Part shown: one piece after another, positions 11,634 through 45,140 of the stretch
Numbering within the stretch: the stretch's first letter is position 1
Layout: each line of letters opens with the position of its first letter
Origin: Ascidia mentula
Taxonomy: Eukaryota > Chordata > Ascidiacea > Phlebobranchia > Ascidiidae
Length of the DNA stretch: 64,000 nt
Direction: 5' to 3'
Assembly: GCA_947561715.1 (NCBI GenBank)
Contig: OX387200.1
Span: 21,578,501 to 21,642,500, forward strand
Made by a program: the position numbers and the translations under genes
The notes under the pieces: model-generated
Seen by the model: only the letters and a program-made list of their open reading frames with translations
Databases searched by the model: none
What the model was told of the DNA's origin: nothing

Positions 11634-12113
11634 ATGGCTAAAAAGGGAGGTTTTGATCGAAACTTTAAATCAACCAATCAAAGTTCATCCCAAAGTTCAT
11701 TTTCGTCACCACTTAAAAACAGCAAAGCGTCAAAGCGAAGTAAAATTAAATTTAAACTGCAAGGTTGGTCACCAAGATCTACAGGAAAGCATGGAGACAA
11801 CGAACAAGTGTTTCGAATAATTCAAGATACGGTGAAGGAAGTCACAGGAGCTTCTGTGGAAAATTTCGATCAGAATAAAATGATTTTAACTCTTTCACAT
11901 GAAAATCCAGCAGTAATTACCCGTGTTGAAAATAAGTGCAGAAGTGGCGACCTGAAGGAAGAGATATACAACAGACTGAAAAGACACAACGTGACGAGAA
12001 CAGCACCACTAAAATTCACTTTCATTAAAATTCTAACCAAAGAAAATATTCTGCGAAGCCCAAGCAAAAATGCAGATCCTACAAAACAAAATATCAGAAG
12101 TGCAGCACAAACA
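11634..12113 (+). CDS. Gene A exon 1: conserved N-terminal domain
   Basis: Exon 1 gives 160 residues. After a Ser/Lys-rich start, residues about 40-140 form a compact, charged segment: [18 protein letters not shown], then [19 protein letters not shown], then NRLKRHNV. It is clearly shared with exon 1 of gene B ([20 protein letters not shown]...[16 protein letters not shown]). Conservation between the paralogues suggests a folded domain, but I do not recognise its family. The donor is at 12114 (gtgagt), phase 0. Confidence 0.8.
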
Positions 12114-15100
12114 GTGAGTTAACATATCATATGTAACACCGGAATGAAACGAAACCTCAACTCGTGTTTGCTTAAGTTTAACTTTATAGAATTACTTTTA
12201 CTGTTATTTAAGTGTATGGAAAGGAAGTTTATGAATATCTGAATCAGCTGTGTTGATAGCAACGAAAAATACTTGTAAATGGTATTGGAAGGATTGCTGT
12301 TACAGAATCACATTGCATTTGTTGCTAATCACTTGAATCTCCTGTCGTGCTATTGTTTAAAGTTTTTTATGTTGTCTTTTTAGGGGGGTACTAACTCTAC
12401 TGGGACTACACAAACACGTACACAGCGAACTGGGCCACATTATGGGTGGAATGTACGGGCTGGAGACACACCAAAAGGTCTACAAACAGTTCCTAAAACT
12501 AAACCACTAGTTTCTGAGAAACCTTTAAGCCGCATGATTAGTGGTGCAATACACAAGACGAACAAACTCATTAAGTCCCTGCCAGGTGGGTATAAATGAC
12601 AGCACAAAAAGTTGTTTTTGTTTCTGACGGAGAAAAACTTTGAAGGTATGAAATCATCTGATGGAGCAATGGCGAAAATGGACGAAAACATTTTGGCATA
12701 CTTTAAAGAAATGGGATATTCAGAAACTCGAGTTTTGAGTGCTGCTAAAAAAGCATGTACGGGTGATAATAATTTCTAAGCATAAATCAACATCCAAATT
12801 TTAAAGTTGAAATATGAATGACATCAATTAAAAACAGGTTCCCCATTTCATTTTGTGTTTAACAGATGCAGAAGAAAGAATGGCATACATCAATCAAATA
12901 CTTGACATCCTTAAGCAAGGTATGGAAACGAAAAAAAAAGAATATTTACTAATACATGTGTAATTTGTAGAAGAGCGTGAATATCAAGCAGTGCAAATCG
13001 TACTACCTGACGTCGATACAAATGGGGGTTATTGCATCAACGATCAAGAAATTGAAAGGATATTCGGACAACCCAGTGTGGCTAATACCCCTGTTGCTAT
13101 CTACTCAGTGGCTGGGGCTTTTCGTAAAGGAAAATCTTTCATACTGAATTTTTTTTTGCGATATTTATCTGCGGTGAACGGAAACGCAGTAAGAAATTTA
13201 TTTCTAATTTTCTTTAAAATTTTTCTCAGAGACAAAAAGCTGGTATTCTGATATACCAACATTTTAGACTGAGGATTGGTTGAAATCGAAAGAAGATAAA
13301 CTGAACAAAGGATTCATTTGGAGAGGAGGATTGGAGAGACACACGGAAGGAATTTGGATTTGGGATGAACCATTTTTTATTCAAACACCAACGGGAAAGG
13401 TAAGGTTAAAATCTGGTGAATACAACCATATGAAAAAGGAGGATGTGTAAAGTATTTTTACGAAATGCAAAGTAAAATACAAATTTTCTAACGTTGTACT
13501 GTCAGATTAAATTTGTTTCCAGAATTTTGAAAAAATGGAAATATGTTTAGGTCGCTTTGTTTCTGATGGATACTCAGGGTGCGTTTGACAATCAAAGCAG
13601 TGTGATGAATTGCTCTGTTATATTTGGTCTCAGCACTCTTCTCAGTTCTGTACAAATTTACAATATTAAAGAACAAATACAGGAAGACACTTTACAGTTC
13701 CTGCAGGTAAGCAAAGTTCTTTGATTTTGTCGAAAATGTATATTTTTGGTTTTCTACATATCCATTTAACAGCTTTTCACGGATTATGCCAAACTGGCCA
13801 AACAAAACCAGAACGACAAAGAGAAAACATTCCAGGTAAGTTAGTCCAAAACTCCATTAAAGATGTTTTTAGACCATAAAATAACAAATCGGTTGTTGCA
13901 TCAAAAGATGTGCGGATTTTGCCACTTTGTGGATTCTAAAGCCTACATCAGAATTGAGAAAACACATATGCGTGTTATAAATTGCTATTTTTAGCGGATG
14001 GCACAAACCATAATTATAGTAAAGCCGGTTTGATGATTTCAGGAATTGATGTTTCTTATTCGGGACTGGCAAGACCCAGCGTATTCCTATGGATTTAAAG
14101 GAGGAAACAAAGTTTTGAAAAAATGGTTGCAACCTCAATTACAACATCAGGACACAAAATCTGTTCGAAACGACATACAGAATTCTTTCGAAAAAATAAC
14201 ATGTTATTTGATGCCCCATCCTGGATTTAGCGTGTCTAGAAGAACTGAAAATCAGGGAAATGATTTGCGAATATCTGGTAGGAAAAAAGTTATTAACATT
14301 GGCCTAAACTTCCTAATTGATTTCAAAATTGAGAATAGACGTGGAGACTGATTTCTTACAAAGTGTTGACATCATGGTGCGGGAACTTTTTTCTCCGGAT
14401 AAAATTGTGGCGAAAAGAATCAACAAAAAACCCGTGACTGGAATCGATCTCATCAACATCACTCTTTCCTATTTCGATGTATTCCAAAGCGGAAAAATGC
14501 CGGAAGTGCAAACAATTTTGCAGGTAATGAACGAAAAGTCAGACGAGTGAGTTTTTTCTGGCGTGACATAAAAATAACAATAAAACAAAACGTTATTGAT
14601 ATTTATCTATCACTGATGCTTTGGGGGCTTGTAATATTCATGATATATATATATAGACACAAGATAAGTACATGTTTCCACACACATTTCCTCCTTTTCA
14701 CAATAGGCTACAGCCGAAATCGCTATTTTGAAAATGCTTGAGGAATGCAAAGATGCATATCGGAATCAAATGAATTTAGTAAGCTTCAATACATGCAGCA
14801 AATTCGTGTACATATTTACAAGAGTTAAACTACTTTAAAGAAACTAAACAACGAATACCAAAGTTTGACAGAAATACATGCGATGCATGAAGATTGCAAG
14901 GAACAAGCTTTGCAACAATTCGATAAACAACGAAAACTGTGTGAAAATGACAAAACGTTTGTTGCGAAGCATCGGGAAAACCTCATTAAAAACATAGACC
15001 AAAAATTAGCCGAGTTTGAGCAATTTAACAAAACACTTATGGTAAGCAAAGTATTTCTTGTGCAAATTTCAAGGAATACATTATGTATATTTCAAGGAAA

Positions 15101-18100
15101 ACTGTAAGGAAACAGTTCGTCACGGATTGGAAGACGCAAGGAACAAATACATATATTATATGGAAAAAGTGAGCTTTGTATGGATTTTAAAATTGAAATA
15201 TAAAAAAAAGACCCATGAATTTAAGTAGTGGTTGATGATTACAAAAGTTTGTGTCTGCTGCTAATTACTTTTTGAAGCAGTTTATATTTGTTTTTTTTAT
15301 CAATTTGTTACAAATTTATCACAACCATTTAACAAAGGTAAATTACTGCTTTTTTTCTTCTCATTTTTCAGTACATTGGTAATGAGTATGTTGATGAACG
15401 TTCACTTAGTAATGAAGATCAGAAGTGCAAAGAAGAGGTTTTGGAATCTTTCGACAGGAAAACAACCAACCTCCCACCGGAAATTGTCGTAATTTACACA
15501 AATCAACTTAAGGTGGAAATTGCTCTGGAATTTAATAAGTTTAAGGAAAGCAACAAACACAAACTGGTAAGTTCTGCGCAAGATACAACTCTCGTTTGTT
15601 CAAATTTGACTTCGTCGGTAAAAGTTTTTTATTTTTAGGAGAGACGCAAACAACGTCTTGAAAAAAGTTCTCTGAATGCATTCAAGATGTACAAAGAAAT
15701 AATGGAAGAAGTAAGTGGCTAGATAGAAATGTTGTTTAGTTTTACCCAAAAACCGTAATGAACAACATCAAACTGTGGTCTCGTTATTGTAACACTTCCC
15801 ATCGCTTTTTGGGGCATTATAACAAGGTTTTTTTTAATCTGGGTGGTCTGTGGAAAAATAAAGCTTGATTAAAACAAAATATGAAGAATAAATGAAGAAC
15901 AATGGTGAAAATACCTGGGGATGTGAAATGAACCTTTTATGTTGCGCTGTGTACATCCGAGTGCAAAGCAAAAAAATCTATTTCTGGGTCAGGGCAGTGT
16001 CGATACAACCCAGAACTCTTTGAACAGGGTGGAATTTCCTGTCGCTTTCATGCCTTAACGGCCACTTTCGGTGTGACTCCATGCTTGACGTGAGCTGTAC
16101 TTTTTGTGATGTGCTTGACTTGGAAAAATTGTGCTTTTCGTGCACAGTTATTGAATGAGACTTTAACTTTGTGACAGATTAAAGGGGATAAAAGCCTTAA
16201 AATAGAGAAGCTAATTAAAAATATACCATTTTTGTAGAAAATTGATCAAAGCATATTAACTGACATTGAGTATGCTGATGTTCACAAACTTGCTCAAAGC
16301 AAAGCCTTGGATGAGTTTGATTCTACACTCAATGAACAAAACGATGACTACAAGGACACAGAAAGAAAAAACTTACTCAAATGGATTCAACAAATTAAAG
16401 GCAACTATCAAATATCAAACGAAACAAAACGGGTGAATATTTATTTAAATGCGGGTGATACCATTTTGAGCATTGTTGAAAGGAATGTTTTGTTTAGAGT
16501 ATGTTTCAAAGGAAACTTATTGCAGAAACGATGGAAAATGTCAAACAACTATACGTTGCTGCAAAGAAAATGGTTTGTGACATATTTGTCTATCTATGGA
16601 ATAAGTATTTATCAATAAAATACGGTTGTGAAACTTCCAGGCAAACTGTACCGAAGAAAGGAAACTGGAACAATTCCATCTGGACAACAAAAAGAATGCT
16701 GAAGCATATCTGGTTTCTTTTCTTTATAAAGACAAGCTGTATGAGAAATGCAAGGAGCAGTTTAACGCAATGATCGAAAGTGAATACAGAGAGATGAAGA
16801 GGGTCAACAGGGACAAAAAGGTAACTTATGCTTGAACCAACGTCATGAAAGGAAACTTATTTCTTGGAATTTGGGTGAATATTTACTAAATGATTAGTAA
16901 CTAAACAATTGAATGTAATCAGCAACTTCCAAACTCAATGAACAGGAAAACGTTTTACTGTAGAATTTGAAAGGGGGCTTATTTCGCTTTGGCATGAAAC
17001 AAATGTTTGGAAAAAATTGTAATGAACAATTTCAATCGACGTGAAGAATATATTAACATTCTTCTTCTGTCAACGTTTTCTTTTGTTTATGATTTAGATA
17101 AGGTTGGATATGGAAGGAAGAACGGCTGTTGGATATGCCAAACTTGCCTTCTCAGATTGCCTGCAAAGTGTAATTGCTTTTATTACATAGTGACTCATAG
17201 TTCTTGAGGTTGATGGTAAAATAGTTCGAAATTTCTCCTTGCGTTGTCAACTTTGCATTTACATTCTATTATAAAGCAAAACCATAGGCGATTTACTTTT
17301 TTGATAACTTCGATTAATGTTATTGTTTTTTCCACTCGAGTAAATGGACAAACTGAAAATACGAAACGACACCATAATAAGCACCACGTTTAAACTAAAT
17401 TAAATACGACGGGAATGCTTGATTAATGACTTTATTCTTTATAGGCTACATATGGAAAGTATGTTGACCAGAGTTCTCAACTTCACGTTGAGAGGAAATC
17501 TAGAAACGAGGCCTTCAAAATATTCGAGAAAAAATCAACAAACTTACCGCCAGAAGTTAAAGAAATCTTCCGACAAGAACTGGAAGAAACCATTGAACAG
17601 CAAAAGGATGAATTCAACCGGAACAACAATGACAAGCTTGTAAGTTAACGAGTTGGTGGTCTGTGTATTTGTAATGATATTAATTGTTTATTTGGACATG
17701 AACATGAGGCTTTAAGTCACTGTAACTTAGGAGCAACTGCCAAACATAAATGTCAAAAGAAAACAGTACATACACCTGGACAAGAACAAGAAACCACACG
17801 GACAGATCAACCTTGTTGACAAATACATTTGAATTTCAGGAGAAAATAAAGATTTCTCTTAAAAAGAAGGCGGATTTCTGCTTCAGCATTTACGTGGAAG
17901 TAATGAACTCAGTAAGAAAATAAATTGTTGCAAGCATTTCTGCATTTACAGATAAAGGATTTCTTGTGTAGAAATGTGCAGAGCAGATCATGTCCGATGA
18001 AGATTTTAACGAAGCTCACAAGAAAGCAAATACCGAAGCATTGGAAACATTTGAAAGCTCAGATGTTGGTTTGAACACAAGTGAAAGAAGCGAGACAAAG

Positions 18101-21100
18101 GAAAAACTTCTACTGCGAATCAGTGATCGTCAAAGTAAATTCAAAGCTGCAGTTGAAAGTAATAGGGTAAGTAAATTCACAAAATCGGTTTACTTCTAAC
18201 AGTTGTCATATGTGTTTCCGGTAAACATGTATATTATTGTCAAATCATATTTTCTGGCTTGGGTCGAGCCGATATGTCTACTTGTGGTCACTGTAATATG
18301 TCTAGTGAAAGTAACGTGGAATTTAAGTTAACTTTTGCTGACTCAATTACACACTTATAATTGCAGAAACAATTTCACACCAAAACCAACGAAACACTAA
18401 GTGCTGCAGCAATTGCGTATTCCTGTGTAATGGACGAGGTGCGCATGCAAGAAATGAGTATATTTTAGTTAAATATCAAACGAAGTTATTCTGTCCTATA
18501 TCAGTTTACCAGATTCTTTGCTTGGTGTATGATTGCAACATTCTTATTTCACTTTCTGATTTAATCAAACGTTATTTTCTTAAGACTTGTAGTCACGGTT
18601 ACGCCACGGAAGAGTCCCTTCAACAAGCATCTGCCAGAGGCAAACAAAAAGCTAAGGAAATTATCTTTTCAGTGTATGATAAATCAATCGTAGATAAATG
18701 TATGGAACTACTAGAAGATATCATCGACAACAAATTTGAGGAAATAAAAATAAGAAACAAGGTTTGTCTCGACCGAAACCAACCAAGAAATTTTATTTGG
18801 AGCAAGGATTTTTATCGTTAGAAAGTCATCACTGATGTACATCGAGATTGGTTGCACCCACGGCATGTTTTAATCATTTACTTTAATACTGTATTTAAGG
18901 TCGGGTTTCGTACAAGATAATAGTTTAGTTTGCAGTTTTAAGCAGTGAATGGGGTATATGCATTCATTGCAAACTTGTATTTTTAATTGTTTAACTTTTT
19001 GAAGCAGAAAGCCTAATAATAAACTTTTCTGGCGTTAAATTATACATGAGTTCTACGTCCCTGTACTACGAATATACCCTAAAATATATAACTTACATAT
19101 AGGAGCACATGGAACATAATATAAACGAGATCATGACCAAATCTGTGGAATTTCATGCCTTCGAGTTAAAAAAGGTATAATTCACTTGTATACGGGACAA
19201 ATTTAAGGATTTCTACATCAAACTTTTGTCAGCAGAAAAGCGGTGGGGAATACGTTGAAGAACGTTTGATGTCGGGATTGGAGCAAAGTTGCCTGGTTGA
19301 AACTCTTGACGTTTTTAAAAAGGAAACCGAACAATATCCAGGGGAGGTAGTTGCAAACTATCAACGTGAACTGGAGATCCTGTTGTATCAGAAATGGAAG
19401 CAGTTCCAGGAGGGAAATTATCGCAAGTCTGTAAGTTGTAAAAATGAGATAGAAATGTATTTAATATTTAAATTAATTTTTTGTTTTGCGCTAAACATGG
19501 ATAGATTATAAGGTTTCAAAACAAAAATCCATCGCATTTGTAATTTTTCAGGTTGAAATAAGACATGAACTTGAAAGGGCAGTAGAGTCTGCATCTAGCA
19601 AGTACAACGAAATTATGCAAAAGGTACATTGGTGCGCATCGTGGTTCTTTCCCCGCAAGTATAACAGTTTTAGATCGTAACATCTTCCTCTGCTTTTTTA
19701 TACACATAGGCTACATCTACAGCTTTTCATTACTTTGAATAAGGAGTTTACGGCACTAATATGCTAAGAATATTATAATTCTTGTTGTAGGTTATTTGTA
19801 AAAACACAACAATAGTTCGCTATATTAGCTGCAAACATACAAATGTCAATTTTTTTTTTCAGGATTTGCTCAAATAAAATTATGACTGATGAGTCCTTTG
19901 AGAAAGTTCACCAAAAAACTCAACGAGAAGCGATGGAAGAATTCGTTGGCCTAAAAGTTGGCCAAAATTCTCATCTTAAGAATGAAGAACAGAAGAGATT
20001 GGCCACCTTGATTCAACAAATGCAAAATAACTGCAAAAAAGACAATGACATAAAGAGGGTAGGCCCACTTCATTATCCTTATTGTGCCTAAACATCTTGC
20101 ATGAAAAAGGGAAAGTGGTTGTTGTTGTTTTTCAGAGGACGGCTCAGGTCGCAGCATTAGAAAAATTGGAAAAGGCTGCAAACACGTATCAGCTAGAAAT
20201 GAAAAAGGTAAAGAAGAAGTTAAACCACCATCTACAATATTGATTTTTTTCCCATTCTGGAAGAAATGTTGATGTTATTTAGCCTAATCAATAGGTATTT
20301 TTTCAAGCGTTGTTCCTTACGTTCTTTTGACAGACTTGCAACGACAAATACGTTGATGAAAGCATACTTGAACAAGCTCACAATGAGGGAAAGAAGAAAG
20401 CTGAAACTGTTTTAAAATCCTTTGAAAGAAAGAATCTTGTTGAAGACCTAATGTCACAGTTCGAGAAATTAATCAACAACGAATACGAAAAGATGAAAAA
20501 TCAAAACAAACATTTAAAGGTAACGCAGTTAGTTTTATAAAATGCTTGATTTTCATGCAGAAAATGATGTGAGTTGCTTTTGAAACCCACAAGTTGTCAA
20601 AATATCTCTATTTTTACAGGAAAAAGCAATCAATCAATTTCGACAAAACAAGCTTGATGCATACGAAAGATACCAAAAGAACATCGACAGCGTAAGTAAA
20701 CCACTTGTATCTCTTCTAGTATGTTAAATGTTATTGGGAAGTAACGAAGTGATATGTTCGGATTTAATAAGCCAACATCTCATCTTTATACAATGGTACA
20801 TGAAATCATGACTTGCCGTTAAACTTCATATGTTTGGATTCTTCGGATTCGGCCAAATCTATGCTGGATTGGCTCAACCCTGAAAAATAATAGATTTGAC
20901 TAGAAAGGAAGGTGTAAACATAAGAGCTTAAACTCTAATTCAATATTAAACATTCGATGAGAAGTTAAGAAAGCTGATTGACACTCGACTTGATGTTTGC
21001 GTAGGCGACTCAACAATACATGGTAGCAGGCAAAATTCAAAACGTTCACCAACAGGAAATGGCCAAAGCATTGGACGAATATGATAAAGGGGGACTTAAT

Positions 21101-22127
21101 GAACCTCAAAATGATTTTAAGTTGTTGAGGAATCACCTAAAAGGAGACATACAGAGACATTACCAGCTTGTTTCCAAACGAAACAATGACTTGAAGGTAA
21201 AAAAAGCACATTTTCAAAATGTGTTTTATAAGCACGAGTGCACGGCCATATTTATAACTTATCAGTTTTCACCACAGCAAATTTAGCACGGTGATTTTGT
21301 TTGCGTATATTGATCTCAAGTATCTTTGATACAGTGGATGCTTGAGGAAAAAGGGGAGAAGGTTTTACAAAACATCAAAATGATCTACATCAAGTTAATG
21401 GATGAGGTAAGTTGGTTTGAGTGATTACAACCAAATGCTTTTTCCATGAATGTGTTTGCACACTCTGTAAATTTTCGACGATTAATGGTCATTTATAACA
21501 TAATAAATTACCTGCGCAGATTTTTTGTAAACATTGCATGTTGTTACGTTCTATTTTACATTATTGCCTGATTTACTGTGTCAGAATCAAATATTGCCTG
21601 ATACTTATACAACATATGTTTTTACAGATTTTTTTATAGCGTTTGAAAACGATTGCAGGCAGTAAGAAAGAGAGTAAATTTTGTGGGACAAAGTAAAAAA
21701 CCTGTAGTCTCGTTACACGTTCTCAATTTTGTTTTTGTAATTCCAGATGTGCAATAGAACATACGTTGAACCAGCACCTCTGCAGGAAACACATCAACAA
21801 TTTAAGAACGATGTTGAAAACAGTTTTACTGAACAACTCGGAGCGAGTGCTTCCGGCATCGTCCAGAAATTGGTTGAAAAATGCCACAATGAGTTGGACG
21901 AACATTTCAAAGGCGTCGAAAAACTGAATGAAGAGAACAAGAAAGTGCTAAAGCGTAAGCGGAGAAAAAAAATCGCAAATATTTTGGGTGGAATTGGTAA
22001 AATTGCTGGAGGGTTTTTGGGAATCCTGCTTGGTCCCAGTGGTATGAAATCTGGCGCTGATGTTGGTAATGCTATAGGCCAAGCAATAGGGAGTTTTTTG
22101 GCGAAAATTACTGAAAGTAAAAAATAA
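11634..22127 (+). CDS. Gene A: atlastin-like GTPase with tandem middle-domain repeats
   Basis: I read 34 exons with consensus splice sites, giving about 1,727 residues against roughly 550 for ordinary atlastins. Order: unrecognised N-terminal domain (exon 1), low-complexity linker (exon 2), UBA-like module (exons 3-4), atlastin/GBP-family GTPase (exons 5-10), about eleven three-helix-bundle repeats (exons 11-33), and a glycine-rich hydrophobic tail (exon 34). Atlastins fuse ER membranes by GTP-driven dimerisation; a membrane-remodelling or large scaffold role is only inferred here. The start ATG has a good context (aaccATGG). One irregularity: exon 28 reads in frame only from 19864, but the AG acceptor ends at 19862, leaving one extra base; canonical splicing would end the frame within five codons, whereas skipping the phase-0 exon would keep it. 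A tandem paralogue, gene B, lies 12 kb downstream. Confidence 0.85.
12646..12919 (+). CDS. Gene A exons 3-4: UBA-like module
   Basis: Exons 12646-12762 and 12866-12919 encode about 57 residues containing [19 protein letters not shown] and then [16 protein letters not shown]. The MGY/F...V..A...A pattern, followed by a helix ending in IL, resembles a ubiquitin-associated domain: a three-helix fold with an MGF/Y loop. If so, the protein may bind ubiquitin. Gene B has no equivalent between its exons 2 and 3. The domain call is by pattern only. Phase-1 junctions on both sides would allow clean gain or loss of the module. Confidence 0.5.
12971..14523 (+). CDS. Gene A exons 5-10: atlastin-type GTPase domain
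   Basis: Exons: 12971-13188, 13268-13399, 13551-13706, 13773-13835, 14043-14277, 14339-14523. The P-loop [10 protein letters not shown] is the atlastin form. The switch I region has [22 protein letters not shown], the G3 motif is [11 protein letters not shown], and the guanine-specificity motif is FLIRDW; all match atlastin rather than classical GBP signatures. LLPHPG-like residues (LMPHPGFSV) and the region before the middle domain (MVRELFSPD...[12 protein letters not shown]) also align with atlastins. All catalytic motifs are intact, so GTP binding and hydrolysis are likely. Confidence 0.9.
14707..21406 (+). CDS. Gene A exons 11-33: tandem three-helix middle-domain repeats
   Basis: Exons: 14707-14778, 14841-15041, 15109-15168, 15372-15566, 15639-15710, 16238-16432, 16498-16572, 16641-16820, 17098-17169, 17445-17639, 17840-17911, 17972-18166, 18367-18438, 18585-18761, 19103-19174, 19236-19430, 19552-19623, 19864-20058 (acceptor irregular), 20136-20207, 20334-20519, 20620-20691, 21005-21196, 21335-21406. 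After a leading short exon, a long exon (177-201 nt) alternates with a short one (60-75 nt) eleven times, all phase 0. Each pair encodes 83-90 residues with recurring features: a start like C..xYVDE..L...H, then an A...F helix, a helix near L...I...F..., N.....L at the long-exon end, and a 24-residue helix. The same plan matches the single three-helix bundle that follows the GTPase domain in atlastins. Confidence 0.82.
21747..22127 (+). CDS. Gene A last exon: half repeat plus glycine-zipper tail
   Basis: The last exon gives 126 residues and a stop. The first 75 or so form another long-exon repeat half ([18 protein letters not shown]...), then a basic KRKRRKK patch. A hydrophobic Gly-rich stretch follows with [19 protein letters not shown] and [15 protein letters not shown]. 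The GxxxG spacing suggests two packed helices, possibly a membrane hairpin replacing the usual paired transmembrane segments of atlastins. An AATAAA signal (22123-22128) overlaps the stop codon. Confidence 0.85.
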   Translation: MCNRTYVEPAPLQETHQQFKNDVENSFTEQLGASASGIVQKLVEKCHNELDEHFKGVEKLNEENKKVLKRKRRKKIANILGGIGKIAGGFLGILLGPSGMKSGADVGNAIGQAIGSFLAKITESKK

Positions 22128-25700: not shown

Positions 25701-25936
25701 ACTGCGACACCTCCTAAAGCAGAGCCTTTCAGAGGTGCCGAGTTTAAGAGGATGGGGCCGGAAGTCCATTCAGACTTCCAGAGAGATTCGGTTTGGGGAG
25801 TAGAGTGAGTTTCTTGAAGACAATAAAGGTCAAAGTTCAAAGAGGAAAGGTACCGGAACAGGGCTTTTCTCTTAGGTGCTCGGCCTAGGCCGTTTACATT
25901 TAAAGTGCACAGGCGTATATACGATGTGGGCGCCAT
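22795..25936 (-). pseudogene. LINE ORF2: endonuclease-reverse transcriptase
   Basis: From the ATG at 25936 the frame opens with LCTLNVNGLG and LYCLQETHS, then ILAGDFNCVLN, SRIDRIYL and FSDHDSVTI, which are endonuclease motifs. The reverse transcriptase shows NYRPISLLN, FVSLDFQKAFDSI, RQGDPLS and YADDVTLM (catalytic YADD). The tail has a CHFC...HLFHNC zinc-knuckle-like motif typical of L1/Tx1 ORF2. One frame runs from 25936 to 23516, with in-frame stops at 25655-25657 and 24851-24853. A frameshift near 23520 moves the C-terminus to 23526-22795. The endonuclease is also short by roughly 50 residues near 25655, suggesting a deletion. It is not functional, but damage is light, so insertion was fairly recent. 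Confidence 0.85.
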
Positions 25937-33204: not shown

Positions 33205-33815
33205 TTACAGAGTGTTGTTGGTTTGAGGATGGAGTGTTGTTGGTTTGAGGATAGAGTGTTGTGGGTGTGAGGATAGAGTGTTGTTGGTGTGAGGATGGAG
33301 TGTTGTTGGTGTGAGGATGGAGTGTTGTTGGTTTGAGGATAGAGTGTTGTTGGTGTGAGGATATTGGTGGTACAAGGATGGAGTGTTGTGAGTGTGAGGA
33401 TAGAGTGTTGTTGGTGTGAGGATGGAGTGTTGTTGGTGTGAGGATGGAGTGTTGTTGGTTTGAGGATAGAGTGTTGTTGGTGTGAGGATATTGGTGGTAC
33501 AAGGATGGAGTGTTGTGGATGTGAGGATAGAGTGTTGTTGGTGTGAGGATGGAGTGTTGTTGGTTTGAGGATAGAGTGTTGTTGGTGTGAGGATATTGGT
33601 GGTACAAGGATGGAGTGTTGTGGGTGTGAGGATAGAGTGTTGTTGGTGTGAGGATGGAGTGTTGTTGGTGTGAGGATGGAGTGTTGTTGGTTTGAGTATA
33701 GAGTGTTGTTGGTGTGAGGATATTGGTGGTACAAGGATGGAGTGTTGTGGGTGTGAGGATAGAGTGTTGCTGGTGTGAGGATAGAGTGTTGTTGGTGTGA
33801 GGATGGAGTGTTTTT
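33205..33815. repeat. 22-bp minisatellite with higher-order structure
   Basis: About 27 copies of a 22-bp unit (gtgttgttggtgtgaggatg plus 2 bases) form a plus strand almost free of C. Variants alternate tttgagg/tgtgagg and atgga/ataga. A distinct variant (tattggtggtacaag) begins at 33361, 33488, 33593 and 33720, giving higher-order periods of 127, 105 and 127 bp that differ by one unit. The array ends about 240 bp before the start codon of gene B. The long minus-strand reading frame over it is only the repeat translated. Confidence 0.95.
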
Positions 33816-34056
33816 GGTCCGTTTAGCGGTGATTAGTACCGTTCCACAACTTCATTGTCGTGAAACAAAATGCGCTTTTTAATTCATTTCAAAAATGTTT
33901 TATCGAGATCAAAACATAATAAAATATTGTACCGAAATTCTGCTGTAATAGATCTGCTATTCCATACAACTACATTGTAAGCAATGGCGTCAAGTTAATA
34001 GAACTTTTTAAAACCTAACTGCTTATTGTGGTAGATAACAAAAGGGTAGCCTAGCC

Positions 34057-34554
34057 ATGGAAAAAAAATACGGTTTGGGTGAAACGTTTATGAATGCTCG
34101 TGAAAAGTTTGGCCCAAGTGGTTGGGCCAAAAGTTCATCCGGAGCGTCGTTTCCACTACCCAAAGCATCAAAATGGAATGAAATTCAAATTAAACTGCAT
34201 GGTTGTTCAAGGTCGGCTACAGGCAAACATGGAGACAGCGAGAAACAGTTTCGTTTAATTCGCGAAACCGTGGAAGAAGTTACTGGAGGGTCTGTGAAAA
34301 AACTAGATCAAAATGAAATGATATTAACCATTGCACATGAAAGCCTTAAAACATTAGATTGCGTAAAAACCAAGTGCCGTAATGGCGAGCTACTCGAAGA
34401 GATCAACACCCGACTGAAAAGTTGCAAATATAGAGATGCAAAACCCGTCACATTCATTGAAATACTCTCTAATGGAAGTAAGAAGACAAAAACTAACATT
34501 CAAGGAGCTCGCGAAAAATGGTTCGTTGGCGAGAGTGCAAAACACAAGTTGGAA
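34057..34554 (+). CDS. Gene B exon 1: conserved N-terminal domain
   Basis: Exon 1 gives 166 residues. Residues about 45-145 match exon 1 of gene A closely ([54 protein letters not shown]). The flanks are Ser/Lys-rich and diverged. Exon 2 (34735-34879) is a lysine-rich linker of 48 residues with little similarity to A. The conserved block is probably a discrete domain of unknown family. Confidence 0.8.
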
Positions 34555-37500
34555 GTAAGTAAACTTAAAACAAAGTTACTAACTAAAAACAAAACAGAGA
34601 TCATTAATTACTGCTACTAATGGTTTAAGCTTTTCTTCCACAATTATTTAGCAGTAATCTTGACGATCTAAACTTATCCAAAAGCCTGTTGATGCAGTAG
34701 CTATAATGTGCCTTTGTTAAATTCTGGTTTTAAGAGTGGTACAAACACTGAAATAACACAAGAAAAAGCACAAAATTTAAACTCTGTGCGGAAGAAACTT
34801 GCCTGCAGAACAGGGGTGATCCTTCGACATGCGGAAAAATTGCAAAGTAAGCTTACGAAATCCAACGTATCCATTCCAGGTGAATAAAGATAACTGAAGG
34901 ATAAACTGTGCTTGAACAAAAAAATGGTTTTCATACTATAATAATTTCTTTCGGGGCAGCAGTAAAAGTAGAGCTTTTGACTTGCTTGAAGAAAATGCCC
35001 CTAATGCATGTATTGATTACAGAAATCGGTAAGCATGAATATCAAGCAGTCCAAATCGTGCTACCTGACGTCGATACAAATGGGGGTTATTGCATCAAAC
35101 GTCAAGAAATTGAAAGGATATTCGGGCAACCCAGTGTCGCTAACACCCCTGTTGCTATCTACTCCATGGCCGGAGCTTTTCGCAAAGGAAAATCGTTTAT
35201 GTTGAATTTCTTTTTGCGGTATTTATCTGCGGTGAACAAGAACGCGGTAAAAGATAATTAAATTTGTGCAAGCGAAAAAAAACAGGTCAACGGTATACCA
35301 ACATTTTAGACTGTGGATTGGTTGACATCAAAAGAAGATAAACTGAACAAAGGATTCATTTGGAGAGGAGGAGCTGAGAGACACACGCAGGGAATTTGGA
35401 TTTGGGATGAACCATTTTTTATTCAAACACCAAAGGGAAAAGTAAAACTGCTGTTTAGTTACTCGCTATGGATAAGTGTATCAGCATCAATATGTACAAC
35501 CAACATAGTTTGGACAACTTTTTTTGCGAGGCTCCGTTATATTAATATGCAGTTTATTGGGTATCTCTATAATTTCTGACAACTTGGTAACTTTTGTTAC
35601 CGCCTGGTGCAGGTCAAGAATAAATCCCAAAGTTTGGTGAAGTCATATAACACGGCTAACTTTACAGGTTCCACAGCCAATTAACCCCGCCACAAGGATT
35701 TAACTGTAATCTCCAGATTAAAAATTTTTTTTTAATCTGCAGCCCAGTTCATGGAATGCGACGCGATCAGTAAACAACGCAAATTTAAAGTATTAACGAA
35801 CAGTCATACTTGGCGAACAGGTTGAGTGTGAATAACACGAAATTTGCAAAGGGACAACTTCGGTACACGACATCTTAATTCACTTTGGTTATAACAGTCC
35901 GGTATCATACACAGTATTAATTAGCAATTTAAATCACAGTGGACTGCATTACATACGAAGATATAACATAGACTTGGTGGGTAATTGTGAGGTATTTATT
36001 GTTGCGTAATATATTCGCGCGTAAATCACTTGGGGTTTCACGAATATCACCACGCTCTTCGGTGGGTTAGTCGACCCTTCCTGCTTTGTTTGTTAAGTTA
36101 AAATTCACGGGACTTCTTTTCATTATCTTTTTAAGGTACTAAAACCTTAGCCCATATTTACTAAAACCCTAAAAAACTACGCCGTGTTATAGGTCGCATT
36201 GTTTCTGATGGACACTCAGGGAGCATTCGATCACCAAAGCAGTGTTAAGGATTGTTCTGTTATATTTGGACTCAGCATTCTTTTGAGTTCTGTACAAATA
36301 TACAATGTACAAGGTCAAATACAGGAAGATACTTTGCAGTATCTGCAGGTAAAGCTCCTTTTCAAATATAATTTAATTTTTTTTGTGACATCGCTTGTTT
36401 TTCATTCATATTCCTGCTTATGTTTTAGCTTTTTACGGAATATGCCAAACATGTCAAGCATAGTGATGAAGAACCACTATTTCAGGTCAGTTAAGTAGTT
36501 GGTTATCGCTTTTCTGAAATAAACCAATTAAACTGCGCTGGGCGGTAGATTGGAGAGTAAACCGCAAACAGTATACACTGTTTCGACATATCAGGTCTCT
36601 TTAGTGCAACTGGTACATCATGTTGCACAAGCAATGTACATGTTTTTAGGAACTAATGTTTCTTGTTCGCGACTGGTCAGACAGTTCTGCTTCATTCGGA
36701 TTTGAAGGAGGAAATAAAGTTTTGAAAAACGTGCTACAACCTAAGTCAGAACATCAGGACACTGAATCCGTTCGAAACGACATAGAAAAGTCTTTCCAAC
36801 AAATAACATGCTGCCTAATACCCCACCCTGGACTTAGTGTAACCGAGAGAAGTGAAAGCGACGGAAACGACTTAAAAATATCTGGTATAAATAACCCTGC
36901 TGGGAAATTATTTGTTTTTCTTATTATTGCTTTGGAACAGACGTGAGAGACCTTTTCTTACAAACTGTTGACATCATGGTGCGGGAACTTTTTTCACCGG
37001 ATAAAATTGTGGCGAAACGAATCAACAAAAAACCCGTGACTGGAATTGATCTCATCAACTACACACTTTCCTGCTTTGAAGTATTTAGTAGCGGAACAAT
37101 GCCGGAAGTGCAAACAATTATGCAGGTATTGTGCTACTGACATTTGTATTTGGAGTTTAGACATATATTTGCGAAACCAAACTTATAAACTATAAAGTTT
37201 CTTTCATAGCATAGTATGTAAGTTAACGAAGTATGCTGTAGCATAAGTAGTGCATTATTTTCAATGAACTTTTGTCTTTAATAGGCTACAGCCAAAGCTG
37301 CTATTTTAAAAATCATTCAAGAATGCAAAGAAACCTACAGGGATCAAATGAATTCGGTAAGTTTCTGCCGAAATCTATTCAGCAATCTTGCAATTTTTTT
37401 TTAAGAAATTGGAAAACGAGTACCGAAGTTGTGCAGAAATACACGAATTCCATAAAGAGTCCAAGACGCAAGCTTTACAAGAATTTGATAAACAACGTAA

Positions 37501-40500
37501 ATTAGGAGACGAAGGGTTTATCGCCAAGTACCGGAAAAACCTTGTGGAAAACATAGAACAGAAATTGGCTGAGTTTGAGCAATTAAACAAAACTGTTAGG
37601 GTAAAGATATGTTTATCTGCTTGTTCACAACTGTCATGCTTGTTTCCCATTTTAAAAAGCGTAGTGTAGCCTTCAATAATATAGGAAATTACTCATATAT
37701 TTATTGTAAGAAATACTTATCATTACTTTTTCTTTCCCTTTGAAAATCTCCAGGAAACCGTCAAGGATGAAGCCCGTGACGAAATGGATAACTCAAGGAA
37801 CAACTACATACACTGGATTAAAAAAGTGAAGTCTGATTTCCTATTTAGTTTTTGGCACGAGCTTTGTCAGTTTTCTTAACAAATAGATCGAAGATAATTA
37901 TTAACGTTGGCTCTTTGTTGTGATGTGCTCGCTTAAATACTGTTTGATGGTTTTATTAGGTTTGACTTGGAGGAATTCGTCGAAACGTAACGATAACTAT
38001 TAACTTAACACTAATTTTTTTTGCCCTATTTTTTAGTACATTGGTGATGAATACGTTGATGAATTGTCGCTCATTAATGAAGATCAGAAGTGCAGAAAAG
38101 AGGCGGTAAATTCGTTGCAGACGAAAACAAGCAATCTCCCACTGGACGTTGTTTTAACCTATAAAAATCACCTCAAAAAACAACTTTCTCTTGAATTTGA
38201 AAAGTTTGAAGAAAGCAACAAACACACACTGGTAAGTTCGGATCTAGGCATATTTTTTGTTTAAAAACATAGTTTTTGAATTGTTGACAAATAGTTACAT
38301 GTTAGGAGAGACATAAACAACAGCTTGAAACAAATTCCAAAAATGCATCCAACTCATACAAAAGAATGATAGAAGAGGTATGTGATTATTTTGGAGTTCC
38401 GGTAATCTCATTCTATTAGTACTACTTTTGTGAAGGCAAAAAAAATCATTAATGCCATCGTCAATTTGCCACATAATGTGGTACATTCATATCGCTGTAA
38501 ACTATAACATAGAAACCTAATTTCAACGTTTACGAGTGTCGTTGGCGTAATTGTTATGTTCAACCGCAATATAATACTGTTTTTTACACATTGAAGTTAA
38601 TTTCGTGCGCGATGTAAGCTGCCAATGTAAAAATAATTGCAACATTTGCGTTTTGTTTTTTTATCAGAATAGCAAACAGATAAAACAAAGAGGGGCATTG
38701 TTTTGTGCGCTAACGTAAGTTCATTAAAATACGGCAGAAAACTAATCAGTGCATATTGTCCGACGATGAGTTTACTGATGTTCACAACCTTGCTGAAAAC
38801 AAAGCCTTGAATGAATTTGATGTTGCATTCACTGATAATAACGATGAATACAAGGATTTGGAAAGAAGGGATTTACTAAAACGTATCCAACAGATCAAAG
38901 AAAACTATGCAAAGTCCAGTCAAACTAGAAGGGTAAAGCTAATCGCCACTTTATTTTAAACAAGGAAAGTTTTTAAAATGCGAAGTATTTGTCAGGAATT
39001 GGCTCAGAAAAAAATTATAGCGGAGACGTTAGAAGATGTGAAACAAGAATACGTTTCTGCAATGACAAATGTATGTTTTATACTTGACTGTAAAGTGTCT
39101 ATATAAGTATTTTTTATTATGAAACGTATTTGTAATTTAGACAAACTATGTTGAAGAAGGCGAACTCGAACAACTACATTTGGAAAGCAAAACAAACGCA
39201 GAAACTTATCTGGTTTCCAAAGACAATTTGTATGAGAAATGCAAGGAGCAGTTTAATGCAATGATCGAAAATGAATATAAGGATATCAAACGGGTAAACG
39301 AAGAGGCAAAGGTACTTTTACACATTTACACATCTAAACAACTTTAATCTCGGAAAAATAATTCACTTAGCATAGTGCGCCCCTCCAAATTCGAATTATA
39401 CAATTTAAATGGTTTAATGTAAAAACCTAACTCTCAATACAAAAAGGTATTAAAATGAAGTTGCCCAGCGACTAATACTGGACATCAGGAAAAGCTATTG
39501 CATTCTCACCGGGCATACAACAGTTTTGCCTCAACAAATTTGCGTTGGCATCAAATGAGTTTAATCAGTATTTAAAATATCCACCAATCCGACCTGACTG
39601 CGAGATCGTTAAGTAGGGGCTCGCGCATTAAGGTGACCATGCTTTATCATGCGATAGCATAAAACACTTTGTCTCATGGCTGTTGGTAGATATTCCCCAC
39701 ACGTAAACGTGAAGGTCATTTTGCAAGTGTACGCTTTACGCAGCAACGTTACGTGACCACAATACACCCATGCACTAAAATGGTCCCACATCTCACTGGT
39801 TACAGTCAGTCGTAATGTGTCTACTTCATTCGACTACAATAATACTGAAAACTGTTCGTTTATGCATTAGATAATATTGGATCAGGAAGGAAAAGCAGCT
39901 GTCGGAACTGCTAGCATCGCCTTTGAAGATTGCCTAAGAAATGTAATTACTTTTATTACAAGCTAGCATCACTCTTGTCATATTTGTTTAGTCGTCGTAC
40001 TTGTTTACTTCAAGTCGTACTTGTTTAGGCTCCTTTAAAACACAGTGTTTTTTATATTTATTGCGTTGTCGACTTTGCCCCATAAATTTAAACAAATGCA
40101 TGTGTCTAATTTGTTGAATGCACATGTTGTATTTTATGTACCATGGTGAGCATTGCTGATCTTTCATTCTACTAAAGTAGTAAAATTACCAATCCGCCAG
40201 TAAAAACACTTTTACAATAACGCTTATTTCACAGTCCACCTCTGGAAACTATGTTGACCAAAGAACTTTGCTTGAGGTCGAAAAGAAATCTTGGAGTGAA
40301 GCTTTAAAAATATTTGAGGAAAAAACAATAAACCTACCCAAAAAAAATAAAAATGATTACCTGCAACAACTTAAAGAAATATTGAGTCGGCAAGAGCAAC
40401 AACTCAAGCAAAATAGCATCGAAAAGCTCGTACGTTGATGCCTTTGTTTTGGTACATAATTGGTCTGTGCACATTTAGGGTTAGAGCCTATGCCCGAAAC

Positions 40501-43500
40501 TTTTGGGTAATTTCGAATCCAAAATAAATCCGATACATATTTGCACAGCTGGAAAATAAGTGCTTGTATGAAGAAAATTGGGAACAGATTTTATGTTTTG
40601 TTTAAATTTAAACAGACACTGCGAGAAAAATTGGTAAAACTCACAGTCCTTTTTCTAGGGGAGCTGTATGACCGTTTACTTTAGGGTTTTTTACAACTTG
40701 TGTAGCATTGTTTATTTGCAGTTTGAATTTGTTTACACTTTAATGCATGTTTACTATTTTCCACAAAGTAGGAGGCGTAATTCCTGTACATTGGATTTCC
40801 AGCTGCTTATTTTACTGGATATCAAAATGATTCTAATTTGGACGTTTTGTTTGCTGACTAGTGTGGGGACGTATCACATCAGTATCGCAAAATTTGTTTG
40901 GAAACTTGTTAGGTGTCGTTATCAGTAAAATGATAATAGTATCAGAAAAGTTACCATTTGTTTTTTATGTAAACAAAAACATTTTAATTTCAGGAAAAAA
41001 TGAAGAATTCTTTAGAAAAGTTGTCGGACCTCAGTTTTAAGAATTACATGCAATCAATGAAGTCGGTAAGAAAAAGATCGATTTTGTTGGTCTACAACAA
41101 AATATCATAAACAACTTGTAGGAACAAGGAAACCACCACAAGACACAATATAATGCTGCACGTCATGACTTAGGTGCCAATGTAATATATTAAAAGCAAT
41201 TTATATCTGTAGAAATGTGCAGAGCAGATCATGTCCGATGAAGATTTTAACGAAGCTCACAAGAAAGCAAATACCGAAGCATTGGAAACATTTGAAAGCT
41301 CAGATGTTGGTTTGAACACAACTGAAAGAAGCGAGACAAAGGAAAAACTTCTACTGCGAATCAATGAGCGTCAAAGTAAACTTAAAGTGGCCGGAGAAAG
41401 GAATTGGGTAAGGAAATTACAAAAACTGCCGTACGGACAACGAATGTTATTTTTTAGCATAGTGGAATAGTAAATATCCTGCAAAAAATGTATCGGGCCT
41501 ATAGAGAAAGTAACAACATAAAGGAGAAGTCTTAACACAAAAAATGTAGTTTTGGAAAAATCATTGCAACCTAAAACAATCATTTAACAACTCTGCACTC
41601 AGGAAACCTGTATAAAATACATATTTTAATGGTTCGGTGTAAGTAAAATATCTTGTGTCCATCAATGTCAAAAAAACAACAACCAGGGTTCACGTTTCGT
41701 TTTGCTCATTTAGTTACATGATAATTATTTGCAGGAACAAGTCCAAACAAAAACTATCGAAACACTGAACGCTGCGGCAATTGTGTATTCATCTAAAATG
41801 GAAGAGGTAGCTATGCAAAAATAAGTGCAAACAGACAATTCTTTCCATACCGGGATTCGTACCCTGGTTATCCTGGTCAAGGAATGCGGTCAAAGTCTGT
41901 TTTTCCGCGTGATACACTGTATTCGTCAAGACCCGAATTAGAATAAATTTAATTTTTTGGCTTGGACCAAAATCGCAAGGACCAAAAACAAACTTTACGT
42001 TTTCAGACATGCATTCAAGGTTACGTTAAGGAACTTCTCCTCGAAGAAGCATCTGCCAGAGGCAAACAAAAAGCTAAAGAAGTTATCCATTTGGTCAGTG
42101 ATAAATCTATCGTGGATAAATGTATGGAATTACTAGATGCCATCATTGACAACGATTTTGAAGAAATCAAAATGAAAAACAAGGTTTGCTATTTGAACAT
42201 TTGGTTTGAAAAGTAAAGCGATCTGTCAGCAATTATTTTGATGTAATTAAATCTAACACAACTGCCTTATGCTGCTTCATATATACGCAATACGAATGTT
42301 TTCTAACAACTTTAACATAAACCAACAACCTAACTTTAGGAGCGAATGGAACTGGAATTTAGCAAGCTCATAACAAAAACCATGGAGTTTCATACTGCTG
42401 TAGTGAACGAGGTAGTCTTTCAATCACCTTTGTACAGGGTTGTGTCATAATTGTTAACGACCAATAAAAAATTTAATACCGCCGATAAATGTTAGTCAAA
42501 TATTATCTGCAACCGGCAGGTAACTGGTTCGACGCCGATTTTTTGTGTTGGGACGTCCCTACGATTCACATTCAAATCTTAATCTTTCGGCCACTGCCTA
42601 CGCTGGCTAAATATATTATCAAACTGTTGGGTTTGTAGGGAAGTGGCGGAAAGTACGTGGAGGAACGTTTGATGCCAGGATTGGAGCAAAGTTGCCGGGT
42701 TCAAGCTCTTCAATTTTTAAAGAAGGAAACCAAACAATATCCAGGGGAGGTTGTTGCAAACTATCAACGTGAACTGGAGATCCAGTTGTATCAGGAATGG
42801 AAAGAGTTCCAGGAGGGAAATTGTCACAAGTTTGTAAGTTCAGTGTTACAAATGTGGAAGACATACATTAAAAAAAGACATAGGAACTAAATCTGAATCA
42901 GATGTGTGTTTTTTCAGGTGAAATTGAAAGTTGAACTTGACAAGGAAGTAGAGTCTGCATGTAACAAGTATCAGGAAATTATGCAAGAGGTGTGTTTTTA
43001 CTAGTGTGTAAGCCCAAGCTGTCTCGCCAAAGTCGTTTCTCGTTGACCGAATCTGTGATGGTACAAACAATTTGGTTTTGAATTTAAGCAAATTTAAAGC
43101 AAACACTTATACACCATTGTATCAAAAGATTCACTTGGAGAGCCAAATGCCAATCTTAGCTATTCCACTAAATTTGTACAATTTTAAAGCTTATTTTTCA
43201 TTTTTTTTCATTAATAAGGTAAACGTAGATATTTTTTTAGACTTGCGCAAATGAAATTATGACCGAGGAAGCATTTGAGAAAGTTCATCAAAAAAATCAT
43301 AAAGGAGCAATTGAAGAATTTCTTAGCTCAAAAGTTGGCGAAAGTTTTGAACTTAAGAATGACGAACAAAAAAGGTTGATAGCTATGATGCAACAAGTCC
43401 AAAGCAGCTATAGAAAAGCAAATGAAACAAAAAGGGTAAGTAGGCCCTATATTGTTTTTGCCAAAATTTCGAAGAACGAATCATACTCATTTGTTTCTAT

Positions 43501-45140
43501 TGTTTGAAGAGGGCAGCTGAAATTGAATCATTAGAAAAATTGGAAAAAGCTGGAAACACCTACAAGCTTGAAATAGCAAAGGTAAAAGACCCATGAGTCA
43601 ATATGGTTTCTACTAAATTTTCAGTTTTGCGTCTAGAATCATGCCATTAGATTCTCTGTTACAGTTAACTTTTACTTTTGACAGACTTGCAACGACAAAT
43701 ACGTTGACGGAGAGAAACTTGAACAAGCTCACAATGAGAGCAAGGAAAAAGCTAAAACAATTGTCACTTCTTTTGATAAAAAACATCTCATCAAAGACTT
43801 CATGTCAAAGTTTGAAGAATTAATCGACAACGAATATCAAAAGATACAGAACAAAAACAAAGATTTAAAGGTAATACAGGCGAAATATCCTAGTTATCAT
43901 GCAAAAAAGAAACTTTATCGTTTTGCAGGATAAAGCAATTTATCAATTTCGACAAAAAAAGCTTGATGCATACGAAAGCTACCAATGTACCATAGACTTC
44001 GTGAGTGACTATATTCTGTTTTTTTGCAAGTAATGTTGCTGCTATTTAAACAATTCTGATATCATACTTGATTGAAAGTACTGTTTGTGCGGAAGATTTT
44101 CATTCGACTTTGTGTGTTGTTAGATGACTCAGCAATACATGGAAGCAGACGAAATGAAGAAGGTTCACCAACAAGAAATGGACAAAGCATTGGACGAATA
44201 TGATAAAGGGGGACTTAGTGAACCTCAAAATGATTTTAAGTTGTTGAGAACTCGCCTGGAAGGAGACATACAAAGACATTACCAACTTGTTTCCAAAAAA
44301 AACAATGACTTAAAGGTAAAAAAACACATTTTCAAACTGTGCTCTGTAAGCACGACCATCTATATTTTAATATTTATATAACACATTATCAGCTCGTTGG
44401 CAAACGAAACAATGATTTAAAGGTAAACGGAGAATATTTAGGGAAGCGTGCAATTTTTAAGCTGAAATAAACTTGACTTTTTTGATACAGTGGATGCTTG
44501 AGGAAAAAGGTGAGAAGGTTTTACAAAGCATCAAAATGGCCTACATTAAGTTAATGGATGAGGTGGGTTTGTTTGTGTGTTTAGAACCAAACAAGATTTT
44601 ACATCATGTTTTGCAATCCATGATAGAATTTCGCCTTTATTACGTGTTACTTTTTTGCAAACAATTGTTTGAAAAAAACTAAATCTGCCAGTAATAATTA
44701 TCATGTGCTTCTGCTGAACCAACTACTAATGTTGTTTCTTTCGGTTTTGCACTTTAAAGGTGTGCAATGAAACATACGTTGAACCGGCGCTTCTGCATGA
44801 AACGCACCAACAATTCATGAATGAAGTTGGTGAAAGGTTTACTGACGAACTTGGCGAAAACGCATTCGACATAGTGGAAAAGTTAATTGAAAAATGCCAC
44901 AATGAGTTGGACGAAAATTACAAAGCCGTCGAAAATCTGAATGCAAGTGGCAAGGATATTCAGCAACGTAAACGCAGAGAAAGGTTTGAATTCATAGCTG
45001 GAGGAGTTGGTAAATTTGCTGGAGGGTTTTTGGGAATTCCGTTCGGTCCTTCCGGTGTGAAAGGTGGAATTGAAGTTGGTAACTCTATAGGCCAAACAAT
45101 CGGGTACTTTTTGGCAAAAGTTACCGAAAGTAAAAAATAA
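34057..45140 (+). CDS. Gene B: atlastin-like GTPase with tandem middle-domain repeats
   Basis: Thirty-two exons with consensus sites give a continuous frame of about 1,652 residues. The plan is the same as gene A: N-terminal domain, short linker, GTPase, eleven long/short repeat pairs, and a half repeat plus glycine-zipper tail. It differs by lacking the UBA-like module. Unlike A, every splice junction keeps frame, so B looks fully functional. The start codon has a good context (gccATGG). Most exon lengths equal those of A, showing that the repeat expansion predates the tandem duplication. Function is inferred: GTP-driven membrane tethering or a giant cytosolic GTPase. Expression is unknown. 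A solo LTR sits in one intron. Confidence 0.87.
35023..37125 (+). CDS. Gene B exons 3-8: atlastin-type GTPase domain
   Basis: Exons: 35023-35246, 35310-35441, 36193-36348, 36429-36485, 36650-36884, 36941-37125. Motifs are intact: [11 protein letters not shown] (P-loop), [15 protein letters not shown] (switch I), [11 protein letters not shown] (G3), FLVRDW (G4) and LIPHPGLSV. The last exon is especially close to A ([20 protein letters not shown] identical). The third exon's acceptor is formed at the edge of a solo LTR. Confidence 0.9.
35646..36191. mobile_element. Solo LTR of a BEL/Pao-like element in a gene B intron
   Basis: The 546-bp insertion begins TATAACACGGC and ends GCCGTGTTATA, an inverted terminal motif. 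It shares its edge and internal words with the LTR at 2910. No internal coding region is present, so it is a recombined solo LTR. It occupies most of the 751-bp intron between 35441 and 36193. Age is moderate: the terminal repeats are still exact, but similarity to the other LTR is patchy. The family assignment is by similarity to the fossil at the window start. Confidence 0.6.
37285..44562 (+). CDS. Gene B exons 9-31: tandem three-helix middle-domain repeats
   Basis: Exons: 37285-37356, 37406-37600, 37754-37825, 38037-38231, 38307-38378, 38750-38932, 38996-39070, 39141-39311, 39871-39942, 40235-40429, 40994-41065, 41213-41407, 41735-41806, 42007-42183, 42340-42411, 42639-42833, 42918-42989, 43241-43435, 43510-43581, 43685-43870, 43929-44000, 44124-44315, 44491-44562. 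All are phase 0; long exons are 171-195 nt and short ones 72-75 nt. Position by position they pair with the exons of A, so the repeats are orthologous rather than independently amplified. Repeat starts such as [16 protein letters not shown] recur. The predicted structure is a long helical rod or solenoid. Confidence 0.85.
44383..44427 (+). pseudogene. Exon fragment duplicated within a gene B intron
   Basis: The sequence acattatcagctcgttggcaaa through gatttaaaggtaaac repeats the last 40 bases and donor of the preceding exon (44124-44315). It lies 70 bp into the next intron. It has no complete repeat half, so it is a partial tandem duplication and probably not used. Confidence 0.6.
44760..45140 (+). 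CDS. Gene B last exon: half repeat plus glycine-zipper tail
   Basis: The exon encodes 126 residues ([19 protein letters not shown]...) with a basic patch QQRKRRERF and the Gly-rich tail [19 protein letters not shown] then [15 protein letters not shown]. It begins with GTG (Val) after the acceptor, where A has ATG; both are internal codons. The tail keeps the GxxxG spacing seen in both A copies. This conservation across three exon copies argues that the hydrophobic tail is functional. Confidence 0.85.
   Translation: MCNETYVEPALLHETHQQFMNEVGERFTDELGENAFDIVEKLIEKCHNELDENYKAVENLNASGKDIQQRKRRERFEFIAGGVGKFAGGFLGIPFGPSGVKGGIEVGNSIGQTIGYFLAKVTESKK

Follow-up and report, generated by a model that had tools for sequence, protein, structure and literature searches.

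In the genome of the sea squirt Ascidia mentula, a stretch of 64,000 nucleotides (contig OX387200.1, here C67, positions 21578501-21642500; hereafter the window) was found to carry two long plus-strand genes, A and B, each encoding a GTPase of the atlastin type followed by a chain of twelve small helical bundles. Both genes were modelled by hand with GT-AG introns and the models were then checked by script; gene A (positions 11634-22127 of the window) has 34 exons and codes for 1734 amino acids, and gene B (34057-45140) has 32 exons and codes for 1656. Both models gave the same order of parts. An N-terminal domain of some 105 residues is joined by a linker to the GTPase, behind which come the twelve units and, last, a glycine-rich tail that is basic; gene A alone has a UBA-like part between linker and GTPase. 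The reading frame of gene B was open throughout and all of its introns were GT-AG. We hold this anatomy, that of twelve-bundle GTPases derived from atlastin, with high confidence.

The GTPase was encoded by exons 5-10 of gene A (12971-14523) and exons 3-8 of gene B (35023-37125), and the G1-G4 motifs of an atlastin-type GTPase were present in both. When the GTPase of gene B was searched together with its first bundle, atlastin was matched at an expectation value (E) of 8.5e-86 and the best guanylate-binding protein (GBP) at 3.9e-16, which places this GTPase nearer to atlastin than to the GBPs. The Pfam family GBP_C also exceeded its cut-off at the first-bundle region (E 2.9e-7 in gene A and 2.9e-8 in gene B), the match being a partial one that covered profile positions 4-126 and 4-117, respectively, of 297. 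Over three GTPase exons, the ratio of nonsynonymous to synonymous substitution rates (dN/dS) was 0.04-0.31 in overlapping gene pairs.

Behind the GTPase, each unit corresponded to a pair of exons, usually of 24 and 65 codons. The short exon had 24 codons in 21 of the 24 units of the two genes, the long exon had 57-67 codons in the 22 units that carry no tail, and 45 of the 46 rod introns were in phase 0, the exception being the one that separates the two exons of unit 9 in gene A. The initial annotation, made from the letters of the window, had described intact GTPase motifs followed by eleven units of 83-90 residues, each likened to the three-helix bundle of atlastin. The motifs were indeed intact ([16 protein letters not shown] and RDW), and the likeness to the atlastin bundle was supported by profile search and by exon structure; the count of eleven was rejected in favour of twelve units per gene, since the U1 exon pair is part of the series, and units 1-11 were found to span 82-92 residues.

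To compare the units with known structures, a profile of all 24 was searched against the PDB, where it matched atlastin 3x1d (E 3.2e-10) and atlastin-3 (E 1.8e-8) over the bundle, and also the first bundle of GBP5 (E 1.4e-4); no spectrin occurred among the PDB sequences matched. With unit 1 left out of the profile, atlastin bundles still ranked first among 177635 PDB sequences and in the right register (E 3.8e-8 and 6.3e-7), so the idea that unit 1 alone accounts for the similarity was rejected. In the canonical atlastin gene of this genome, at C67:11.38 Mb, there is just one bundle, 89 residues long, and it leads into a hydrophobic exon; the first exon of that bundle has 24 codons and is flanked by phase-0 introns, like its counterparts in the rods. 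The remaining 65 codons are split there by a phase-2 intron, whereas the rods normally have one exon; a division into 42 and 23 whole codons was tried and rejected, as it needs a poorer donor site. Compared one by one with the canonical bundle, 19 of the 24 units reached z-scores of 3.0 or more. Homology of the units with the atlastin three-helix bundle is thus supported at the sequence level, and it appears that multiplication of the exon pair encoding the 89-residue bundle has produced a row of twelve, arranged as the chain U1-[A-B-C]x3-U11-U12.

The chain is named after the classes of its units, with units 2, 5 and 8 forming class A, units 3, 6 and 9 class B, and units 4, 7 and 10 class C. 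In gene A, unit 1 (U1) lies at 14707-15041, cassette 1 at 15097-16820 (15097-15566, 15639-16432 and 16498-16820), cassette 2 at 17098-18761 (17098-17639, 17840-18166 and 18367-18761), cassette 3 at 19103-20519 (19103-19430, 19552-20058 and 20136-20519), unit 11 (U11) at 20620-21196 and unit 12 (U12) with the tail at 21335-22127. The corresponding positions in gene B are 37285-37600 for U1, 37754-39311 for cassette 1 (37754-38231, 38306-38932 and 38996-39311), 39871-42183 for cassette 2 (39871-40429, 40994-41407 and 41735-42183), 42340-43870 for cassette 3 (42340-42833, 42918-43435 and 43510-43870), 43929-44315 for U11 and 44491-45140 for U12 with the tail. The intron that follows the U11 long exon of gene B also holds an incomplete copy of that exon's end (44384-44422).

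The grouping into A, B and C was the best of all 280 partitions of units 2-10 into triples in each of the six twelve-unit genes of the home cluster (genes A and B, g46m, g49, g50 and g53); mean identity of the long exons was 29.3-32.8% within these triples, against an average of 18.0-21.0% over all the partitions. Because the six genes are relatives of one another, their rankings are not six independent tests; the partition test itself is independent of the class profiles. Those profiles were trained on five of the twelve-unit genes in the given order, which makes the class order of the five circular; g46m, which stood outside the training, showed the same order. In a tree of cassettes, cassettes 2 and 3 each formed one clade across all genes having them, with 100% ultrafast bootstrap. 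The best-matched of the shorter relatives, at C2:15.38 Mb, has six units whose classes follow the order U1-A-B-C-U11-U12, so that the long form resembles this short one extended by two A-B-C cassettes. An ancestral stage of nine units was not favoured: in the nine-unit gene g56 (U1-ABC-ABC-U11-U12), which has weakened units and a partly degraded appearance, the second cassette nested in cassette 3 of the twelve-unit genes (97%). This nesting would fit loss of the middle cassette, in a tree that is unrooted and places the six-unit genes weakly.

Relatives were sought in the whole genome (195.8 Mb, 79 contigs). At least 107 matches to the GTPase exon bearing DTQG were obtained, many of them clustered, a count that includes the query and the canonical atlastin. 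Within the home cluster (C67:21.44-21.652 Mb), unit 11 of g46m was found in two pieces. The arrays of g52 and g55 have six units, the fifth of which scored best as class C and not as U11. Unit counts outside the twelve-unit genes are lower bounds, as weak units may be missed. Six units were counted at C52:17.88 Mb, where E-values were 0.1 for the fourth and 0.01 for the sixth, with no clear class, and at least four at C52:21.01 Mb; C72:13.02 Mb and C2:11.10 Mb gave six mostly weak unit matches each, C71:9.02 Mb two matches, C67:7.48 Mb one, and C70:4.61 Mb and C2:17.00 Mb one marginal match each. Seven units, two of them U12-like, were counted at C67:10.02 Mb; in this paralog (L029, C67:10018848-10019755) the second U12-like unit stands beside the last one. 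Multi-bundle rods are thus a feature of part of the family, and it was only in the cluster to which the window belongs that length steps of whole cassettes were clear. Genes A and B are two members of this large family of GTPases derived from atlastin, which has expanded locally and lacks a clear transmembrane hairpin.

At the N-terminus, exon 1 of gene A (11634-12113) and of gene B (34057-34554) encode a domain whose structure was modelled with a mean predicted local distance difference test score (pLDDT) of 66 and the order beta-alpha-beta-beta-alpha-beta; exon 2 in each gene (12384-12585 and 34735-34879) encodes the linker. TRADD-N had been guessed from the sequence before the Foldseek search was run, and among the best 50 of 1049 chains the TRADD-N structure 1f3v stood first in query-normalised TM-score (0.45) and in probability (0.98) and showed the smallest root-mean-square deviation (3.6). 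Pfam gave no match better than E 0.11 with six members of the domain. Fusions of TRADD-N to GBP GTPases are reported in passages of PMC8195603 and lend plausibility to the assignment. Searching the genome with a single sequence located the domain at five places, a weaker profile match was obtained at C2:15.38 Mb, and the cluster search gave no match in g46m or g49. Exons 3-4 of gene A (12646-12919, as 12646-12762 and 12866-12919) encode the UBA-like part, which has no counterpart in the gene B model. When exon sequences joined by hand were used as queries, UBA-like Pfam families matched the paralog g53 at E 9e-6 to 0.013, with just PF07223 (9e-6) over the cut-off, and UBA_N4BP1 matched gene A at E 1.7e-4, below the cut-off. 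The tails reached a maximum 19-residue hydropathy of 1.61 in gene A and 1.24 in gene B. Two transmembrane segments after the bundle, as in atlastin, were not found by this hydropathy measure, and neither protein has a CaaX or related C-terminal lipid site, both of them ending in ESKK.

The long exons of the rod gave dN/dS values of 0.25-0.45 in all six gene pairs compared (the pairs overlap), which speaks for selection acting on the repeats at the protein level; together with the same twelve-unit array in six genes, this purifying selection argues at the level of sequence that GTPase and repeats form one gene. Between gene A and g50 (C67:21593341-21600441 and C67:21505252-21512387), synonymous divergence was lower in the rod (0.06) than in the GTPase (0.30), as if the rod had been homogenised by gene conversion. 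Compared with this close paralog, the acceptor before the unit 9 long exon of gene A (19863) is one base off, so that the usual donor gives a frameshift and a second GT eight bases downstream keeps the frame (irregular splice site at 19632/19862); gene A may accordingly be truncated in life unless the second donor is used. Between the two genes, at 26895-27275 on the plus strand and belonging to neither, lies an orphan last exon (long exon of unit 12 with tail), a remnant of a third family member.

Taken as a whole, the genes seem best explained as atlastin-derived, immune-type GTPases with a long spacer between a dimerising head and a membrane-seeking tail, an overall reading in which we place moderate confidence. 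Its narrower part, a role in cell-autonomous defence in which the length of the rod sets the reach, is the likeliest function but tentative, although we would not call it unlikely. The repeats themselves probably form an extended rod: proline and glycine made up 12 of 660 residues at the unit junctions, as compared with 16 of 236 and 25 of 197 in the two loops, and this rarity suggests continuous helices between units. As in spectrin, helix 3 of each bundle would then pass without a break into helix 1 of the following bundle, and the rod would measure something like 50 nm (a very rough figure, from 12 units x ~28 helical residues x 0.15 nm per residue); its far end might be anchored in a membrane by the basic glycine-rich tail. 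By analogy with atlastin and the GBPs, from which both head dimerisation and lever motion are borrowed, the GTPase heads would pair on binding GTP, and paired heads could span long distances in bridging or coating membranes. The TRADD-N-like domain and, in gene A, the UBA-like part may provide a link to immune signalling or to ubiquitin-marked targets.

Several results weigh against this reading. The Foldseek match to 1f3v had an E of 0.12 and stood at rank 11 by E-value, nothing in that search having reached E 0.001, and the uS motif of TRADD-N, defined in PMC8195603 and located at the beta2-beta3 turn, was absent from the window genes; residues 80-83 of gene A, between beta2 and beta3, are QNKM, and a C2 paralog has NS nearby. 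The tail is only mildly hydrophobic, not exceeding a segment within the GTPase (values of 1.52 and 1.63) and falling short of a canonical atlastin exon (2.29). The tails of genes A and B themselves had no convincing Pfam match, Gly-zipper_Omp (E 0.001) being obtained for the orphan exon only. Five of the 24 units (4 and 11 of both genes and 5 of gene B) had z-scores of 0.7 or less against the canonical bundle. A model of one unit gave three helices (pLDDT 78, predicted TM-score 0.69); it carries 20 intron-encoded residues, and in Foldseek it matched generic helical bundles, with no atlastin among the 50 chains listed. Continuity of the rod rests on the composition of the junctions, which is consistent with it. 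Three of the four six-unit arrays failed to match all six classes cleanly, g52 had no detected GTPase exon, and the splice site in unit 9 of gene A is irregular.

Some of these points could be turned into a different account of the repeats, that they are unrelated helical or coiled-coil units which look like atlastin merely through the adjoining GTPase. Pairwise identity between units is often just 10-20%, the one-unit fold search was generic and five units lack individual similarity to the canonical bundle; but the profile without unit 1 puts atlastins first in the right register, and unit length and first-exon borders equal those of the canonical gene, so that we consider this account extremely improbable. 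It is also very unlikely, in our view, that the long genes are decaying or artefactual, with exon arrays which arose by unequal crossing-over and do not make one protein. The splice irregularity of gene A, the orphan last exon, the weakened units of g56, the divided unit 11 of g46m and the missing GTPase of g52 would agree with decay, against which stand the fully open frame of gene B, the twelve units kept in six genes and the rod dN/dS of 0.25-0.45.

The remaining alternatives accept the anatomy and differ in what it does. The repeats might fold back into a compact GBP-like lever, in which GTP hydrolysis unfolds or swings the stack; GBPs also extend past the first bundle, and the GBP_C match falls on that very region, but twelve bundles would require many sharp turns and the junctions are poor in proline and glycine, leaving such a lever doubtful. 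A housekeeping or trafficking tether of the same anatomy, spacing endoplasmic reticulum (ER) or vesicle membranes with no role in defence, would agree with a GTPase far nearer to atlastin than to GBP and with the action of atlastins on the ER described in passages of PMC4926086. The lack of a clear transmembrane hairpin, the at least 107 GTPase-exon matches with their clustering, and the TRADD-N-like and UBA-like additions speak against it, and we judge it unlikely. Large clustered families and added domains of this kind are more typical of immune families. In a more far-reaching reading, the proteins could be GTP-driven membrane tethers whose length comes in blocks of three bundles (6, 9 and 12), that is, rulers of about 25, 38 and 50 nm in which A-B-C is a structural turn or a binding repeat, targets at different distances are sensed or wrapped, and the swing of the first bundle is passed along the rod. 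This is quite unlikely, and is weakened by the poor match of the six-unit arrays to the class order, by the one array without a GTPase and by the degraded look of the nine-unit gene.

Elsewhere in the window, a minus-strand non-LTR (long terminal repeat) retrotransposon of the long interspersed nuclear element type lies between gene A and the orphan exon (22795-25966), in several separate open frames with reverse transcriptase (E 9e-33) and endonuclease (E 2e-7) matches. A 22-base tandem array of 28.6 copies (33210-33818) stands directly upstream of gene B. On the plus strand, an open frame at 48156-48644 matched NOC3p, a nucleolar complex-associated protein (E 6e-11), and a single open frame of 488 amino acids at 54959-56425 contained a GDNF/GAS1 domain (E 4e-6); on the minus strand, a 490-residue open frame at 781-2253 matched DUF1759 (E 4e-8), a family which we take to be known from BEL/Pao-type elements. 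Two matches to glycosyl hydrolase family 6, a domain borne by tunicate cellulose synthase, were found in the genome (E 9.2e-6 and 1.1e-4), the second holding an internal stop, and agree with a tunicate source.

The genes represent a new architecture within a known superfamily. The tandem-bundle plan of the initial annotation was upheld, and the cassettes of three, the N-terminal domains, the glycine-rich tail and the genome-wide expansion were absent from it. In the open-access literature, searched by title and start of abstract, no description of tandem atlastin bundles or of these tunicate genes was found, and one may exist elsewhere. The genome holds a canonical atlastin and about a hundred related GTPase exons, some of which stand beside TRADD-N-like and UBA-like parts and have a multiplied bundle. 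Whether atlastins take over the defence roles of GBPs in invertebrates lacking GBPs is posed as an open question in part of a 2022 review (PMC9005921), and passages of PMC4926086 state that no GBPs were found in Ciona; with this sea squirt the question can be tested directly. In addition, the agreement with the canonical gene in unit length and first exon indicates how a mobile component of a known machine can turn into a modular rod, which changes its length by whole cassettes.

Compared with atlastin itself (ATL1/ATL3 and fly atlastin), the GTPase motifs and whole domain, the three-helix unit of 89 residues and the phase-0 first bundle exon of 24 codons are alike, and the differences lie in the number of bundles (twelve against one), the lack of a clear transmembrane hairpin, and the extra N-terminal domain and glycine-rich tail. 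GBP1 and GBP5 belong to the same superfamily and share a helical extension after the GTPase and tandem gene clusters, the latter described for GBPs in passages of PMC9005921; unlike them, the genes reported here have a GTPase much less similar to that of GBPs (3.9e-16), no CaaX box and many more bundles. The silkworm BmAtlastin-n, reported in part of PMC4926086 as an antiviral atlastin relative of 770 amino acids without transmembrane segments, is likewise an atlastin relative without clear membrane segments, but is much shorter. The invertebrate TRADD-N/GBP fusions also join a TRADD-N-like domain to a GBP-type GTPase, whereas the window genes lack the uS motif, and passages of PMC8195603 describe no repeated bundles; in its main text tunicate, urochordate and Ciona are absent and "ascidian" occurs once. 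Spectrin repeats are likewise tandem three-helix bundles of similar size; unlike in spectrin, each bundle here would be derived from atlastin and the rod bears a GTPase head.

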